Assembly (NCBI GenBank): GCA_902792555.1 | Contig: CADAZW010000048.1 | Coordinates: 1-36,344, forward strand | Direction of reading: 5' to 3' | Source of the DNA: an uncultured Bacteroidales bacterium | Lineage (GTDB): Bacteria > Bacteroidota > Bacteroidia > Bacteroidales > Bacteroidaceae | DNA: 36,344 bases | In this document: positions 4,082-36,344 of the stretch, in pieces | Layout: the number at the start of each line of letters is the position of its first letter | How positions within the stretch are numbered: position 1 is the stretch's first letter | The notes under the pieces: generated by a model | What the model was told of the DNA's origin: nothing | The model's input: only the letters and a program-made list of their open reading frames with translations | Database searches by the model: none | Made by a program: the position numbers and the translations under genes

Positions 4082-4228
4082 GCGCGAATATTTTTTCTAA
4101 TTGCGAGAACATTTTTCCTCATCGCGAGAACATTTTTTCTAAATGCGCAGAGGTGTTCGGTTTCGGCGCGATTAGATTTGACTTGTGCGCGATTAGATTT
4201 CGTTTCGGCGCGATTAGATTTGACTTCC
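4082..4228 (+). repeat. 21-nt tandem repeat, locus 1 (seven units)
   Basis: Seven consecutive units of exactly 21 bases start at 4082, 4103, 4124, 4145, 4166, 4187 and 4208, each beginning GCG. The last three share the core GCGCGATTAGATTT. The fourth (GCGCAGAGGTGTTCGG) also begins the copy at 21,253. The first three are an AT-rich variant (GCGAGAACATTTTT). A short open frame crosses the array, but the repeats at 36.3 kb read in another frame, so coding is unlikely. The 329-base gap 4017-4345 holds only this array, the hairpin before it and the aspS terminator. Confidence 0.9.
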
Positions 4229-4265
4229 TCGCGACTATGTGACGACTGAGCCTGTCCATAAGAAA

Positions 4266-19803: not shown

Positions 19804-19813
19804 CATAGCCTTG

Positions 19814-19846
19814 AAGACTTCTTCCCGCAACGAAGAAGTCTTTTTT
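19814..19846 (+). terminator. Rho-independent terminator of tRNA-Lys
   Basis: An 11-bp perfect stem (AAGACTTCTTC with GAAGAAGTCTT), a 7-base loop and a T run at 19841-19846, starting 11 bases after the tRNA. Confidence 0.9.
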
Positions 19847-19966
19847 GGTGACAATTCTCGGTGAAGGAATGCCAGGGATAAATCCCCCCTGATGAAATGC
19901 AATATCCTTGATACTCCCATATAGGAGTTGAGAGGGCCTAGGGAGATAAGAAGGAATCTCCTCCTC

Positions 19967-19994
19967 GCTAACCGCCAACCCATAACCGCTAAAC
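19967..19994. repeat. Period-7 repeat before the 19999 gene
   Basis: Four heptamers (GCTAACC, GCCAACC, CATAACC, GCTAAAC) end four bases before the ATG at 19999, where a ribosome-binding site would normally be. Confidence 0.8.
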
Positions 19995-19998
19995 CTAT

Positions 19999-20220
19999 AT
20001 GACTCGTTTATTATCCAAGGCACTTGTTATAGTGCTGCTATTAGGTCTGCCCGCCCAGGGTGCGGCAGACAAGATTGCGCCGCGCTGTAAGGCAGTAACC
20101 AAAAAGGGCAAGAGATGCCCCAGGGCAGCCAAGAGTAAAGGCTATTGCTCCAAGCATTATATGATGAAGTTCCCTGACAGAGCGATGGATAAGTTTGACA
20201 AGACGCTAGATAAGCTATAG
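19999..20220 (+). CDS. Small exported Cys/His (DUF5763-like) protein
   Basis: The 73-residue protein starts MTRLLSKALVIVLLLGLPAQGAA, a clear signal peptide. A compact C-x9-C-x9-C-x2-H motif follows (C30, C40, C50, H53; KAVTKKGKRC and KGYCSKHY). This C-x-A-x-T-x-x-G-x-x-C...C-x-x-H pattern is that of a small presumed zinc-binding domain common in phage and mobile-element proteins. A signal peptide in front of it is unusual. The C-terminal tail is charged. It lies just downstream of tRNA-Lys and overlaps the convergent HU-like remnant by 6 bases. Confidence 0.7.
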   Translation: MTRLLSKALVIVLLLGLPAQGAADKIAPRCKAVTKKGKRCPRAAKSKGYCSKHYMMKFPDRAMDKFDKTLDKL

Positions 20221-20472
20221 CACGATGATGTTCTGGAACTGAGCCAACTTGGCTGCCACGGTCACCTTGGGCGTGGGCGTGTAGCGCACCCTCACGTTGT
20301 AGATACCGTCGACAAGCTTCTGCAGAAACTCGCGCATCTGCTTCTTCTCCTCATCGGTCTCGACCTTGGCAGGGCGAGTGTCAGGGATAAGCTTGCCGTT
20401 GCAGCTGAGGCTGAAGGTTCCAAGACGGGGCACGACGATGGTGTGGCCGTTGAGGAGGAATGTGGTAACCAC
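20215..20472 (-). pseudogene. HU-like DNA-binding protein, 5'-truncated
   Basis: The frame (85 residues from a GTG; open back to about 20,500) matches the second half of Bacteroidales HU/IHF-like (HU-HIG) proteins: TTFLLNGHTIVVPRLGTFSL is the beta-arm entry and VRVRYTPTPKVTVAAKL the C-terminal strand and helix. The N-terminal helical half is missing. The open frame begins at a stop and runs into 8-base repeats (GGTTAAAA, GATTAAAA) at 20501-20531. It is most likely a remnant, although translation from GTG 20472 cannot be excluded. Confidence 0.6.
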
Positions 20473-20612
20473 CTTGCTTAATAAGTCCCATGGTTTTTAA
20501 GGTTAAAAGGTTAAAAGATTAAAAGATTAAAGGTTAACAATTCTCGGTTGAGGAAAGTTGAAGAATTGAAGAATTGAAAAATGGAAGTCGCCTCTGGACT
20601 TGGCTTAACTAT

Positions 20613-20712
20613 GCCGCTTCGCTCTCAGACTCTCTTTTGTCAGCCCGGCTTCGCCGACCACTGACAGAGCCTTCGCGATGCCTGCGGCATTCAACTATCA
20701 ACTATCAACTAT
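20613..20712. repeat. Structured repeat element, copy A
   Basis: It begins GCCGCTTCGCTCTCAGAC, shared with copy B at 27,490. Hairpin 1 pairs TGTCAG (20638-20643) with CTGACA (20661-20666), with an inner CGGC (20646-20649)/GCCG (20653-20656). Then CTTCGCGATG leads into hairpin 2, ATGCC (20678-20682) with GGCAT (20686-20690). Three CAACTAT heptamers follow (20692-20712). The gap 20473-20751 holds this element, 8-base repeats at its left and a promoter at its right. Confidence 0.85.
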
Positions 20713-20736
20713 CTTCGTGCTCTCGCGAAAAGCAAT

Positions 20737-20768
20737 GCAAAGTTAACACTTTTATGTTAAATACGCAA
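20737..20768 (-). promoter_or_regulatory. Minus-strand promoter reading into the structured repeat
   Basis: TTG (20768-20766), a 20-base spacer and TAACTTTGC (20745-20737) fit the consensus very well. The transcript would run through the structured element toward the HU-like remnant with a leader of about 260 bases. It may be the original promoter of that gene or drive a non-coding RNA. Confidence 0.6.
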
Positions 20769-21144
20769 GACTTTTAACATGGTTTAATACAAAGAAAAAT
20801 TGTTGCTGTCCGTAGCGTGCTTGCAGAAGAAAAAATGAAAGCCTTCCCTCCTTCAGCTTCGACGAGAGGATCAGCACGTGGAGTCCGCTCTCGTTGATTA
20901 AGATGACGTTACGTCGCTGACCTGACAGAACGATTCGTTCACTCAGCTTGTCCTCTTCATCCACATAGTCGCGTAGCGCCTTGGCTGGGTTCTTGTACCA
21001 CAGTGACTTGGCCACGTCCTTGCCCACGAAAAAGGTCTCGCCCCTCTCGTTGGTCATCGTGCGGACAGTGCCACCTTCATCCTCTCGCTCATCACTCCGA
21101 AGGAAAGCAAAGCCGACTGACTCCCAACGACGCAGAGCCAGCAC
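20752..21144 (-). pseudogene. Bro-N antirepressor remnant
   Basis: Residues about 30-95 match the Bro-N domain of phage antirepressors (TFFVGKDVAKSLWYKNPAKA, DYVDEEDKLSERI, VILINESGLHVLILSSKL). After SSKLKEG the frame becomes Phe-rich and atypical; a neighbouring frame reads GKAF as expected, so a frameshift lies near 20,845. The C-terminal antirepressor domain is absent. It is a decayed phage or integrated-element gene beside tRNA-Lys. Confidence 0.75.
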
Positions 21145-21252
21145 TACGACAAATCATAGCCCGCAGCATGTCCATAAATCAAATTTGTAATTGTAAATAA
21201 ATGTAGAAATGGTAGCACTAAAAAATAGTCTATTTAGAAAAACCTTTTAATT

Positions 21253-21336
21253 GCGCAGAGGTTGTCAGTTTCGGAGCGATTAGATTTGTCTTCGACGGAC
21301 TCAGTATAGACTTCGGCGCAATTAAGGGGGAGTGTT
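21253..21336 (+). repeat. 21-nt tandem repeat, locus 2 (four units)
   Basis: Units start at 21253, 21274, 21295 and 21316. The first (GCGCAGAGGTTGTCAGTTTCG without its last base) matches unit 4 of locus 1. The second carries GCGATTAGATTTG. The others are diverged. The array ends on the stop codon of addB (21336). The gap 21145-21335 holds nothing else recognisable apart from an ATTGTAAAT stretch near 21,188. Confidence 0.85.
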
Positions 21337-24011
21337 CAGCTGCGCGCCGCTTTGCGACCGCACAACGGCTTGTACTTGCAGAATGTGCAGGGCGAGTCTT
21401 TGCCTTCTGCAGCCATGGGGAATTGCTCGGCGGTGAGTATCTCTTCCACCAGGGTAAGCAGGCGCTTCTCAAACGCATCCCTGACGGCGTCGAAATCCAT
21501 CAGGGGCTCTCCGCCCAGATGGAGGTGGGGATTGAATGTCTTCAGGTTCTTCTGTGTATAGAAGAGTATGGGGTACACCCTGGCATCCTGCCGCAGCAGA
21601 CTGCGTACGGCCTTGTCGGTGCGGGCGGCAAGGCAGTAGATGAGTGTCTGCAGGATGTTGCCCGTCTTGCTCTGACCGACCTCAAACAGGGCATCCAGCG
21701 AGTTGGCATTCATGTTGTCGTCATTGTATCTGCCTGTCTTATAGTCGGCTATGCGGCAACTGCCGTCTGCTATGCTGTCAATGCGATCGATGCTCCCGCC
21801 AATCTTAAGGTTCAGCCCACAGAGGCTGGTCTCATAGTAGGCCTCTTTCTCACAGCCTATTATCTGCAGGCCCGGGGTGCTCTCGTCGCCGGCAAGTATG
21901 TTGGCCAGGTGCTTGACCGCCACACCGGCCTCCACCTTATGCTGCTCCGGCTGATAATGGTCGGGCGCATTGGCATCGTGCCGGCGGCGATATTCATCGT
22001 TAAGCATCCGGAACGCCTCGTTCACGGCACGGACCAGCTGGGTTTTGTCCTTGCGGAACTGCCCTATGGCCTCCGGGGTGAGGGGACGATTCTTCTGGTC
22101 GGTGATTATGCCATAGGCCACCATCGCCGAGTTGTGGATGAGGGTGCCGAGCTCGTTGACCTGCAGCATCCTGTCGGCAGGCTCCGGCTCCGCCACTCCG
22201 AGGATGTAGTGGATGAAGAACTTCATCGGGCATGTAAGGTAGGTCTTTATGGCCGAGGGCGAGAGGGAAGCCTCCCTACCCTGCTGCTGCATCTGCCTCA
22301 GGCGGTCGGCGTAGCATCTGAAGTCTGCCATCCCATACATCAGCCCGATGGCCTGCTCTTCTGCCATCTCCACCGGCAGCGAGCTGCCCTCTGTCAGCAT
22401 ACGACGCCGAGTCTCGAAGCGTGGGCTGACCAGCATCTGCATCACGAAGCGCGACATTCCCTTCTGGCCCATTGCCGTCTGCGCATCACAGTAGGCTACC
22501 GTCACGTGACGGCAGCGCCTCAGCAGGCGGAAGAAGTTGTAGGCGTAGATGTCGGTCTGCTCATCATTGGTCGGCAGTCCGTAAGTCTTGCGCAGGTAAT
22601 AGGGTATGAATGACTTGTCCTTGCCTGCCTTGGGCACCACGCCCTCCTCCACGTTGAGAAACAGTATATTGTCAAAGTCGAGGGCGCGCGTCTCGAGCAC
22701 TCCGATAATCTGAATGTCGGTGATGGGCTCACCGTGGAACGGGATGCTCACCGTGGAGAGGTGGCGCAGCAGCAAGTTGCGCAGCGTGTGAATCTCCCTG
22801 ATATCGTCCAGAGTGCCGTCCTTCACCAACTGAAGGAATCGCACCACCACGAGCCTCGCCTGCCACAATGACTCGATGTCGAGCAGCTCGTGCCAGGGCA
22901 GAGCCGATGACTCTTGACTCTCGACTCTCGACCCATGACTGTCAATCAGTCGCAGCAGGCCCTGCAGCACTTCAGCGAAGTCGGCATCTTCCTTCTTCTG
23001 ACTATGCAGGCGCTGCGCTATCTCGGCGAATATGCGGGTATTGTGGAGTGGGAAGCCCTTGGTGATGTTTACTCTCTCTGCAAACTGCGGCGGTATGGCA
23101 AACACTACGTGCTCCAGCTGCATCTCGCTGCAAATGACGACGGCAGTGCGGTCGCCCTCCCGATGATGCGCCAGCAGCCAGTCGTGGACATAGCGGGCCT
23201 GGGCATTGTCTGACGGGGCGGCTATCACCTCTATCGGCTCCCTGCCGAGCTCGGCGCTGTCATCGTAAAAGCCGCCGAGGTTCTCCAGCCCGGTGCCGTC
23301 ATGGCGCATATTGCGACGCACATTCCTGTACACTCTGATGTTGTCGCCCTCATGCCTGTCGAAGTTGGCATCATAGTCCCAGTAGAAGAGGGCCATGTCA
23401 CGCTGCTTAAGGCGGAGCATCAGCGCCCGCTCGACGGACAGCAGCTGGTTGAAGCCGACGAAGACTAACTTGCGGTCCTCAAACTGCGGAGCCACCTCGT
23501 CAACGTGGTCCACCACCCATCTCCACCGTGCTCCCTCAAGGGCGCTGCCCTCCTTAAGCAACGCCTCTGTCAGGTCACGGTAGATGTCTGGAATCTTTTG
23601 CCACAGGGTCTCGTACTCCTTGCTCACGCTTTCCTCGCCGTCAGGAACTGACATGCCTGACTCCCTGACCAGGCCAATTATTCGCTTCCTGACCTCTTCG
23701 TCTATTTTGACCTCCCCCCAGCCATAGAAGGCATCGAGGCTCAGCTTCGTCTCCACATGCTTCGTATATATCCTGTATAGCAGGCACACCGTCTTCAACT
23801 CGTCGGCAGCCTTCAGCGGACAGAGGCTGTCAAAAAGGTCGCTGATTGTGGTACACTCCGGCGTAAACACCGGACGATTGCCGGCCAGCCGGCCCAGCCA
23901 TTCCTTGGCAAAGAGACCTGCACGCCGTGTGGGCAGCACCAGGGTAAGGTCCTGCATATTATCACCGTAGCGGCTGTACAAATCATTTATCGTATATTCC
24001 AGAAACTTCAT
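21336..24011 (-). CDS. addB: AddB-like helicase/nuclease subunit, PD-(D/E)XK family
   Basis: The 891-residue protein is a partner of the AddA-like helicase in double-strand-break resection. The N-terminal inactivated helicase half (TLVLPTRRAGLF at 23-34) is followed by a RecB-type nuclease domain at about 580-891: GGSIDRIDS and RIADYKTGR carry the catalytic Asp and Lys. Four cysteines frame it for a 4Fe-4S cluster: C594 (YLTCPMKFF) and C875, C878, C884 (CTFCKYKPLC). A period-7 repeat lies within codons 357-368. It lies 34 bases after addA. Confidence 0.9.
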   Translation of the reverse strand: MKFLEYTINDLYSRYGDNMQDLTLVLPTRRAGLFAKEWLGRLAGNRPVFTPECTTISDLFDSLCPLKAADELKTVCLLYRIYTKHVETKLSLDAFYGWGEVKIDEEVRKRIIGLVRESGMSVPDGEESVSKEYETLWQKIPDIYRDLTEALLKEGSALEGARWRWVVDHVDEVAPQFEDRKLVFVGFNQLLSVERALMLRLKQRDMALFYWDYDANFDRHEGDNIRVYRNVRRNMRHDGTGLENLGGFYDDSAELGREPIEVIAAPSDNAQARYVHDWLLAHHREGDRTAVVICSEMQLEHVVFAIPPQFAERVNITKGFPLHNTRIFAEIAQRLHSQKKEDADFAEVLQGLLRLIDSHGSRVESQESSALPWHELLDIESLWQARLVVVRFLQLVKDGTLDDIREIHTLRNLLLRHLSTVSIPFHGEPITDIQIIGVLETRALDFDNILFLNVEEGVVPKAGKDKSFIPYYLRKTYGLPTNDEQTDIYAYNFFRLLRRCRHVTVAYCDAQTAMGQKGMSRFVMQMLVSPRFETRRRMLTEGSSLPVEMAEEQAIGLMYGMADFRCYADRLRQMQQQGREASLSPSAIKTYLTCPMKFFIHYILGVAEPEPADRMLQVNELGTLIHNSAMVAYGIITDQKNRPLTPEAIGQFRKDKTQLVRAVNEAFRMLNDEYRRRHDANAPDHYQPEQHKVEAGVAVKHLANILAGDESTPGLQIIGCEKEAYYETSLCGLNLKIGGSIDRIDSIADGSCRIADYKTGRYNDDNMNANSLDALFEVGQSKTGNILQTLIYCLAARTDKAVRSLLRQDARVYPILFYTQKNLKTFNPHLHLGGEPLMDFDAVRDAFEKRLLTLVEEILTAEQFPMAAEGKDSPCTFCKYKPLCGRKAARS
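22909..22943. repeat. Period-7 repeat inside addB
   Basis: Five heptamers in the coding sequence: GACTCTT, GACTCTC, GACTCTC, GACCCAT, GACTGTC. They encode DSHGSRVESQES in a loop of the helicase-like half. The reverse complement AAGAGTC also occurs in the non-coding tract at 27,467. Confidence 0.85.
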
Positions 24012-27428: not shown

Positions 27429-27440
27429 CACACTATTTTA

Positions 27441-27608
27441 AGTCTTGAGTCTTAGGTCATGAGCCAAGAGTCACTCCCAACTCCTAATTGCCGCTTCGCT
27501 CTCAGACTTTCTTTGTATGTTGGCACCGGCTCCGCCGACAGCCAACGAAAGTCTTCGCGATGTCTTCGACATTCCTAATTCCTAATTCCTAATTTTTAAC
27601 TCCAAACT
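27441..27608. repeat. Structured repeat element, copy B, with flanking heptamers
   Basis: Seven period-7 units (27441-27489) lead exactly to the element start at 27490 (GCCGCTTCGCTCTCAGAC). Hairpin 1: AGACTTTC (27504-27511) with GAAAGTCT (27547-27554), GTTGGC (27519-27524) with GCCAAC (27541-27546), inner CGGC/GCCG (27527-27530, 27534-27537). Then CTTCGCGATG and hairpin 2: ATGTC (27560-27564) with GACAT (27568-27572). Heptamers CCTAATT x3, TTTAACT and CCAAACT follow (27574-27608) to the galM stop. The 327-base gap 27283-27609 holds this, the terminator and the addA promoter. Confidence 0.88.
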
Positions 27609-36244: not shown

Positions 36245-36344
36245 AGGGGACTTTTTTAATCACGCCGAGCCGAAATCTAATCGCGCCAAAGTCAAATCTA
36301 ATCGCGCCAAAGTCAAATTTAATCGCGCCGAAACTGACCATTTC
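36245..36344 (-). repeat. 21-nt tandem repeat, locus 3 (continues past the window)
   Basis: On the minus strand, units run 36328-36308, 36307-36287, 36286-36266 and 36265-36245. The core is GCGCGATTAGATTTGACTT, with the last unit decayed. They are preceded by GGTCAGTTTCG, which matches the end of the first unit of locus 2. The array reads toward the 3' end of the DUF3667 gene (stop at 36189). Confidence 0.9.

Follow-up and report, generated by a model that had tools for sequence, protein, structure and literature searches.

Short hairpin-forming repeats associated with heptamer arrays in genomes of an uncultured Bacteroidales genus

The window, a stretch of 36,344 nucleotides from an uncultured Bacteroidales bacterium that was analysed as a whole, contains two intergenic copies of a structured element whose stems differ in sequence and still pair. 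A preliminary description of this DNA took the paired substitutions as strong evidence that the folded form is selected, and could not assign the element to a known family. The question raised by this locus is what kind of element the two copies represent, and whether their compensating changes do point to a selected RNA.

Anatomy of the unit and size of the family

The features of the two copies and their immediate flanks, as read from the sequence, are listed below.

20613-20691, plus strand: element copy A, 79 bp, with a start and end that recur about 100 times in the genome
20619-20622, plus strand: copy A, 5' arm of stem P0 (TCGC), partner GCGA at 20675-20678; conserved column pairs 7-10/70-73 in the 26-row alignment
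20627-20633, plus strand: copy A, 5' arm of stem P1 (AGACTCT), partner AGAGCCT at 20666-20672, with one A.C
20638-20643, plus strand: copy A, 5' arm of stem P2 (TGTCAG), partner CTGACA at 20661-20666
20646-20656, plus strand: copy A, apical hairpin CGGC-TTC-GCCG
20678-20690, plus strand: copy A, terminal hairpin ATGCC-TGC-GGCAT; alignment column pairs 74-77/81-84
20692-20713, plus strand: array of CAACTAT heptamers at the right flank of copy A, the left flank of which ends in TAACTAT
20737-20745, minus strand: TAACTTTGC motif, a putative lookalike of the Bacteroides-type -7 box, directed leftwards into copy A
27440-27489, plus strand: degenerate array in 7-bp phase left of copy B, last heptamer CCTAATT, without counterpart at the corresponding site of the sister genome G016
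27490-27573, plus strand: element copy B, 84 bp
27496-27499, plus strand: copy B, 5' arm of stem P0 (TCGC), partner GCGA at 27557-27560
27504-27511, plus strand: copy B, 5' arm of stem P1 (AGACTTTC), partner GAAAGTCT at 27547-27554
27519-27524, plus strand: copy B, 5' arm of stem P2 (GTTGGC), partner GCCAAC at 27541-27546
27527-27537, plus strand: copy B, apical hairpin CGGC-TCC-GCCG
27560-27572, plus strand: copy B, terminal hairpin ATGTC-TTC-GACAT
27574-27594, plus strand: (CCTAATT)x3, right of copy B

All of the paired segments named in the preliminary description are present, namely TGTCAG/CTGACA in copy A, GTTGGC/GCCAAC and AGACTTTC/GAAAGTCT in copy B, the inner CGGC/GCCG in both, and a second hairpin that reads ATGCC/GGCAT in copy A and ATGTC/GACAT in copy B. 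Copy A additionally has the outer stem P1, in which the single A.C mismatch becomes G.U on the minus strand, and its base 20666 is claimed by both P1 and P2, which compete there. The window units start with GCCGCTTCGCTCTC and finish with TCGCGATG(C/T)C-loop-G(G/A)CATT. Between these ends come P0 (TCGC/GCGA), a variable P1 of 7-8 bp, a 5'-side bulge, a variable P2 of 6 bp and the apical hairpin, and a separate terminal hairpin, ending in ATT, closes the unit. For the two window copies, RNA folding is predicted to be more stable on the minus than on the plus strand (-38.3 vs -28.8 and -33.8 vs -28.5 kcal/mol).

A promoter had been read into copy A, and the TAACTTTGC motif (20745-20737, minus strand) does precede this copy; its resemblance to the Bacteroides -7 box makes it a putative promoter element. 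The position ascribed to copy B also holds: this copy separates a galM-like gene (PF01263) from the following gene, which has the same strand, and a NAGLU gene that is presumably GH89 lies upstream of it. Copy A is housed in a 1.5-kb block (window 19804-21352) with a Bro-N fragment and small ORFs, located between tRNA-Lys and the next gene. Elsewhere in the window, 21-bp tandem arrays (3 x 7) are found at 4082-4234 and 36273-36329, and by eye the units of the arrays at 4162 and 36273 seem related, on opposite strands.

The element had been described as present twice, which is right for the window and wrong for the genome, where about 100 copies are found. In the window's own genome (G000; 2.29 Mb, 80.5% complete), the 5' end matches 100 places with at most three mismatches and the 3' end matches 126, each compared with a single match for the reversed pattern. 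The sister genome G016 (86% complete) has 104 matches and its reversed control none. Both assemblies are fragmented, and the sample holds one genome per species. From 135 candidate 3' ends, many of the leftovers being chance matches, 104 units with both ends were taken, the discrete unit being GCCGCTTCGCTCTC...TCGCGATGCC-ttc-GGCATT. Unit length is 79-87 bp in 78 of them and at least 111 bp in 23, with three shorter; most of the 23 long units hold extra modules, which are other sequences or internal duplications. Roughly a hundred such short, hairpin-forming repeats make up the family of which the two window copies are members.

For the unit borders, 74 pairs of near-identical copies outside tandems were compared. 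Position by position, identity mostly lies at 0.9-1.0 where the element starts and ends and at 0.91-0.96 at positions -1, +1 and +2; past +2 and -1 it drops to heptamer-level similarity, and farther out to a baseline of ~0.26. Both flanks differ (fewer than 10 of 14 positions alike) in 39 of the 74 pairs. Where units stand in tandem, they are joined head to tail, with ...CATT followed directly by GCCG.... A repeated module, CAGTGCCCACCTCCGGACTTGGCTAAATTT, often adjoins units (L013, L018, L003, L020 and others).

An exact 18-bp match retrieved 17 stretches from the genome collection, of which 11 (on ten contigs) come from the uncultured Bacteroidales assembly RUG13363; the other six were judged by their flanks to be chance matches. 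The exact 18-bp 5' pattern gave no match in viral contigs, and copy B gave none at 1e-5 by blastn against plasmids and phages. With Rfam 15 at the gathering threshold the window returned only tRNA-Lys, in line with the earlier failure to assign the element to a known family, and a permissive scan of four loci returned four rows, none on the element. Among the papers listed from a largely open-access literature, no title or abstract describes this hairpin family in Bacteroidales. A longer autonomous version, sought in 283,463 bases as starts and ends 210-4000 bp apart, yielded no clear example; starts without a partner end were taken for chance matches in coding sequence, for variant-ended units or for truncated ones. 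One unit of the own genome (L225:4953-5607) is interrupted by an insert of ~560 bp with a small open frame of ~100 codons.

Covariation of the stems

Pairing of the P1 arms was measured in 97 distinct units of the own genome, with arms located by distance from the conserved ends and the register chosen as the best of 16 and kept in the shuffles. The arms are 82.1% paired, compared with 57.3 +/- 1.9% when arms are shuffled between units (maximum 63.5% in 1000 shuffles). Common arm pairs are AGGCTCT/AGAGCCT (13), AGACTTT/AAAGTCT (11), AAAGGCT/AGCCTTT (11) and AGACTCT/AGAGTCT (9), followed by GCAGCTC/GAGCTGC (6), GCGGCTC/GAGCCGC (4) and ACTGCTC/GAGCAGT (4). The 26-row alignment combines 24 of 29 representatives, chosen from 77 simple units, with the two window copies. 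In it, 91.3% of cells are paired vs 30.6-45.0% in six slid registers, and 55 cells are changed on both sides vs 20.7 +/- 3.8 after shuffling. Two other measures were weaker and do not clearly exceed their shuffles: the alignment has 17 further pair types where shuffling gives 18.3, and 8 doubly changed pairs where shuffling gives 5.9, with 26 of 500 shuffles reaching 8. Compensated variants of the terminal hairpin include ATGGT/ACCAT, CCCC/GGGG (G002) and ATGGC/GCCAT (G153, of another genus).

Pair types were counted over 1573 cells from 104 distinct simple units (own and G016), with P1 included only if no fewer than 5 of its 7 arm pairs are Watson-Crick and with ends assigned by consensus similarity, both of which flatter pairing. 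On the plus strand, 1505 cells are Watson-Crick, 36 A.C, 19 G.T and 13 other. The excess of A.C over G.T, which corresponds to G.U on the minus strand, has a p of 0.03 with non-independent cells.

These results bear in two ways on the claim that the fold is selected. The compensating changes are real and extend over several stems in many copies. As proof of selection, however, covariation is undercut by pairs that are nearly all Watson-Crick, by the absence of orientation bias in 32 intergenic copies and by the precise, dispersed units. Wobble intermediates this scarce would, in our judgement, be unusual in an RNA that drifts slowly. Template switching in replication is reported to create perfect stems, and to maintain or repair them, in one step (PMC8794818), and since the pairs are nearly purely Watson-Crick, it may have produced the compensating changes seen here. 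Thus, because template switching can yield paired changes, the covariation shows that the hairpin form is maintained and not that an RNA is selected.

Heptamer arrays, empty sites and units inside genes

Among the 102 own units, 72 are non-tandem, and in 34 of these the left and right flanking 7-mers agree at no fewer than 6 of 7 positions (shuffled mean 4.9, maximum 12 in 200 shuffles). The mean identity of the flanks peaks sharply at 7 bp (0.617, vs 0.384 at 6 bp and 0.292 at 8 bp), unit flanks carry a clear lag-7 signal, and T occupies position -1 in 69 of the 72 copies. The same trend, weaker, is seen for 17 non-tandem units of G016 (4 with matched flanks; shuffled 0.9, maximum 3). Matching 7-mers are missing in the other 38 of the 72 (e.g. 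...TTTCTGT-unit-CAGTGCC). In 283 kb of own sequence, selected for holding copies, 100 period-7 arrays were counted vs 8, 14, 29, 15, 3 and 1 at periods 5, 6, 8, 9, 10 and 11. Of 44 units, 20 are no more than 30 bp away from a detected 7-bp array, compared with 2.7 for random placement (maximum 10 in 500 trials), and 24 are not; a unit lies within the same distance of 25 of the 100 arrays. Units flanked by CCTAAYT have a single orientation, 25:0 (20 own, 5 G016). Identity of the flanking 7 bp could be read as a target-site duplication, a trait of MITEs; this simple reading was set aside because many copies lie in longer arrays, where a duplication and an insertion into an array look alike.

Other palindromes share this surrounding. 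Two further palindromic repeats, unrelated in sequence to the unit, occur in a like heptamer context, in hemW of G002 and in carA of G008. A second palindromic repeat (...CCCTCCCCTCAAGGGAGGG...CCCCTTGAGGGGGAG...) has several copies, some adjoining heptamer arrays, at the following sites.

L001:775, L222:5179, L224:7156 and L232:16996: second palindromic repeat, own genome
L191:1008: second palindromic repeat, G016
L237:4915: second palindromic repeat, G002, in hemW

A strict gapped pattern found the unit in five of 19 genomes of the genus (G000, G016, G002, G007 and G008). Slightly relaxed, it matched seven of the 399 genomes that represent the taxonomic family. Six belong to the genus, G009 being added by one match, and the seventh, G356, was judged a chance match. 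The covariance-model search proposed in the preliminary description, with at most 30 candidates scored per genome, returned four of 151 genomes, one of them through the single G153 copy. With overlapping matches included, triple CCTAAYT arrays total 282 in G000, 334 in G002, 138 in G016, 17 in G007, 16 in G008 and 3 in G004, compared with 0, 40, 2, 9, 9 and 2 for the reversed controls; from these controls, the excess is clear in G000, G002 and G016 and slight in G007, G008 and G004. None were found in the other 13 genomes of the genus. Units and arrays thus occur in mostly the same genomes, the exceptions being G004 (arrays, no unit found) and G009 (a unit, no such arrays). When the window region was searched, the best match was G016, followed by G007, G002 and G008, so that shared descent alone could explain the overlap.

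Sites filled in one genome were compared with their counterparts in others. At the copy B site, G016 and G009 have ~70 bp where the window has ~250-285, and neither the unit nor the heptamers are present. In G016, G007 and G008, the block that houses copy A is missing from the interval between tRNA-Lys and the following gene. Conversely, G016 has a unit inside an AddB-like gene orthologous to window 21336-24011 (PD-(D/E)XK nuclease), and the window gene has none. The own HemW-like gene (Radical_SAM and HemN_C) carries an 81-bp unit with GACCATT heptamers, in frame, near its 3' end; the same place is short and uninterrupted in G016 and holds three heptamers and the unrelated palindrome in G002. 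For carA, ten relatives were matched at 1e-60. The linker is plain in nine, and in the tenth, G008 (L263), it contains two tandem short palindromes, TCGCGGCCTCCGAGCCGCGA, in frame and with CCTCAAA-like flanks. Empty sites usually differ by both the unit and the heptamers around it, so that only carA comes close to a single-step insertion of a bare unit.

Units were examined for an open frame in 110 own, 45 G016 and three G002 cases, a few of which are chance matches. The resulting listing has 51 rows, six of which were dropped as chance coding matches (L232 twice, L230:7570, window 21339, the second L165 row and L204), and the gene count rests on a Pfam scan of 20 ORFs. In one scanned set of ten ORFs, seven have no Pfam domain, the open frames of L200 and L060 have the element at their upstream end, and only L201 was counted. 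The frame is open through the unit in ten counted genes, six of which have conserved sequence on both sides or a unit-spanning domain. These are, in the own genome, CarA (between the CPSase small-chain and GATase domains), a glycosyltransferase and the HemW-like protein and, in G016, a threonine aldolase, an Omp85 protein (with a weak POTRA match) and the AddB-like nuclease. A recognised domain on one side only is found in an exo/endonuclease-phosphatase (unit near the N-terminus), a GDPD protein (near the C-terminus) and an alpha-2-macroglobulin-like protein of the own genome, and in a G016 GNAT protein (L201) carrying two units. CarA has 37 residues in place of 7 in mitochondrial CPS1 (6uel), although against E. 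coli CarA (1bxr) its surplus across the full match is only 15 residues, and it is 25 codons longer in the stretch matched in G016; the threonine aldolase has 52 residues where a homologue has 6.

All 11 counted in-gene copies have a length divisible by 3, vs 66 of 104 distinct simple units. All 11 are also read on the same strand, so that the mRNA carries the minus form, although it is the opposite strand that is more often open; some uncounted open-frame rows read that opposite strand. The own AroA (L230:13123-14657) contains two units, and the parts of its EPSP synthase profile (9-282 and 294-417) fall in different frames, so this aroA may be dead, phase-variable or misassembled. Intergenic copies (n = 32) show no bias relative to gene orientation (++ 9, -- 9, -+ 8, +- 6).

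Possible origins and related repeat systems

A family spread in 7-letter arrays, with some units in frame in enzyme genes, suggests a small mobile element over a regulatory RNA. We consider it probable that the units are a clade-specific family of short, non-autonomous mobile hairpin elements in one uncultured Bacteroidales genus. A single strand would fold, and the joining points would be set by the 3'-terminal hairpin ending in ATT together with a T-ended target. Insertion would take place on the 3' side of the T, either within a 7-bp array or within a direct repeat of 7 bp that arose by chance, genes included, and the flanking heptamers could later expand or contract. Copies would be mostly neutral passengers, with coding insertions persisting where length and frame are tolerated. 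No Y1 transposase (PF01797) or reverse transcriptase (PF00078, RVT_1) was found in G000, G016, G007 and G008, which are incomplete assemblies; among the 19 genomes of the genus, four have the former and five the latter, the carrier G002 being one in both cases. With neither enzyme in the two heaviest carriers, G000 and G016, the usual REP/RAYT and retro routes are unsupported, subject to the completeness of these two assemblies and to the presence of both enzymes in G002, and we would favour a factor that acts on single-stranded DNA in its folded form and may do so at replication forks.

A functional RNA family (a small RNA or an mRNA element) with a selected fold, as first proposed, seems to us very improbable. 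The strong covariation, the more stable minus-strand folds, the A.C excess that would be G.U in a minus-strand transcript and the minus form of every counted in-gene copy are consistent with it; intergenic copies without orientation bias, the rarity of wobble pairs, the copies within coding sequences and in tandem, and tested sites that are not conserved in G016 argue against it. That a Y1 (HUH) tyrosine transposase moves the unit in trans, as a REP/REPIN- or IS200/IS605-type element, is likewise very improbable. Elements of this type transpose as single strands, and the end-adjacent terminal hairpin, T-ended 5' flank, orientation specificity and head-to-tail junctions would all fit, as would the Y1 and RVT_1 proteins encoded by G002. 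However, PF01797 is found in only one of the five carriers, and none of 104 distinct units has GTAG or CGTC within 8 bases of either end (of the reverse complements, CTAC occurs in 2 and GACG in 0).

Two other palindromes occupy the same heptamer niche, so that a host process acting at replication forks competes seriously with this reading as a mobile element. It would require no dedicated element: replication slippage and template switching would build the 7-bp arrays and copy hairpin segments from array to array, and quasi-palindrome correction would keep the arms complementary. The missing Y1 and RVT_1 genes of G000 and G016, the heptamer context shared by unrelated palindromes in hemW and carA, and counted pairs with few wobble intermediates would all agree with such a process, perfect stems from template switching have been reported (PMC8794818), and the T-ended left flank and ATT right end could be microhomology. 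Constant borders across very different flanks and the fixed CCTAAYT orientation, in contrast, are not obviously given by error-driven copying, and among the genomes searched the phenomenon is limited to a few of one genus. On balance, we regard this process as unlikely, while taking it seriously. Also unlikely, in our estimate, is a related reading, in which one 7-nt-phased process would make heptamer arrays from chance 7-bp repeats and implant sequence-unrelated hairpins in and between genes, without Y1 or reverse transcriptase. To our knowledge, such propagation of short DNA has not yet been described; if true, heptamer changes (7 = 1 mod 3) would switch the reading frames of carrier genes.

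If the units are indeed mobile hairpin elements, several known repeats invite comparison. The Rickettsia palindromic elements (RPE; Ogata et al. 2000) are short palindromes dispersed between genes and also fused in frame in conserved protein genes, with long predicted stem-loops (PMC2229807, PMC10969869). The Bacteroidales units are likewise dispersed, hairpin-forming and in frame in conserved genes (ten, six of them on both-sided evidence). Compared by description, RPEs are 105-146 bp long with ~12-bp terminal inverted repeats (PMC2229807), whereas the units mostly measure 79-87 bp and lack such repeats; RPEs also belong to another phylum, and the sections seen of these sources report no association with 7-bp arrays. 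REPs with GTAG/CGTC tags are 20-40 bp, high in copy number and sometimes in genes, and the CGTC repeats, which also occur in Bacteroidetes, are said to lack a dedicated transposase (PMC3733652); the Bacteroidales unit is longer, with nested stems and neither tag at its ends. PINSR of Prevotella intermedia is a high-copy, lineage-specific, apparently non-coding 188-bp repeat that, as in our family, has no terminal inverted repeats; its greater length and the absence of "stem", "secondary structure" and "tandem repeat" from the main text (PMC4755523) set it apart in this comparison by description. A MITE was rejected, since terminal inverted repeats are lacking and the unit ends allow at most a 4-bp GCCG/CGGC alternative pairing.

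Heptamers link the family to two further systems. The small dispersed repeats (SDR) of Nostoc punctiforme, reportedly described by Elhai et al. in 2008, are said to be 21-27 nt long, to share a common fold with compensatory changes and to lie often in tandem heptamers. Heptamer embedding and a compensated fold are also found here; by that definition, the SDRs differ in being cyanobacterial and about a third as long, and the Bacteroidales units occur in frame in genes as well. SDR copies are reportedly also nested in themselves; most of the 23 long Bacteroidales units contain inserted modules, in the form of other sequences or internal duplications. We know of hairpin repeats in heptamer arrays only from Nostoc. 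An integron attC identity was set aside on general grounds. TAACTGA heptamers form direct repeats in Beggiatoaceae, cyanobacteria and five Bacteroidetes, mostly intergenic, with indels in 7-nt steps and other heptamers alongside (PMC4679880). They share the 7-bp tandem arrays, but one heptamer is followed there and many here, and the excerpts consulted of that study mention no hairpin unit. Membership among RPEs, REPs or MITEs fails on defining features, and by analogy the family may be said to resemble Rickettsia RPEs and Nostoc SDRs.

In-frame palindromic repeats are best known from Rickettsia, although intragenic copies of other small repeats have also been reported (PMC2229807, PMC10969869, PMC3733652). 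In these uncultured gut Bacteroidales, the in-frame and heptamer habits are combined, and closely related genomes with and without the feature are available. The family also cautions that compensating changes in bacterial repeats need not imply a functional RNA. With related carriers and non-carriers at hand, two old puzzles, RPE-like movement and the origin of bacterial heptamer arrays, become testable.
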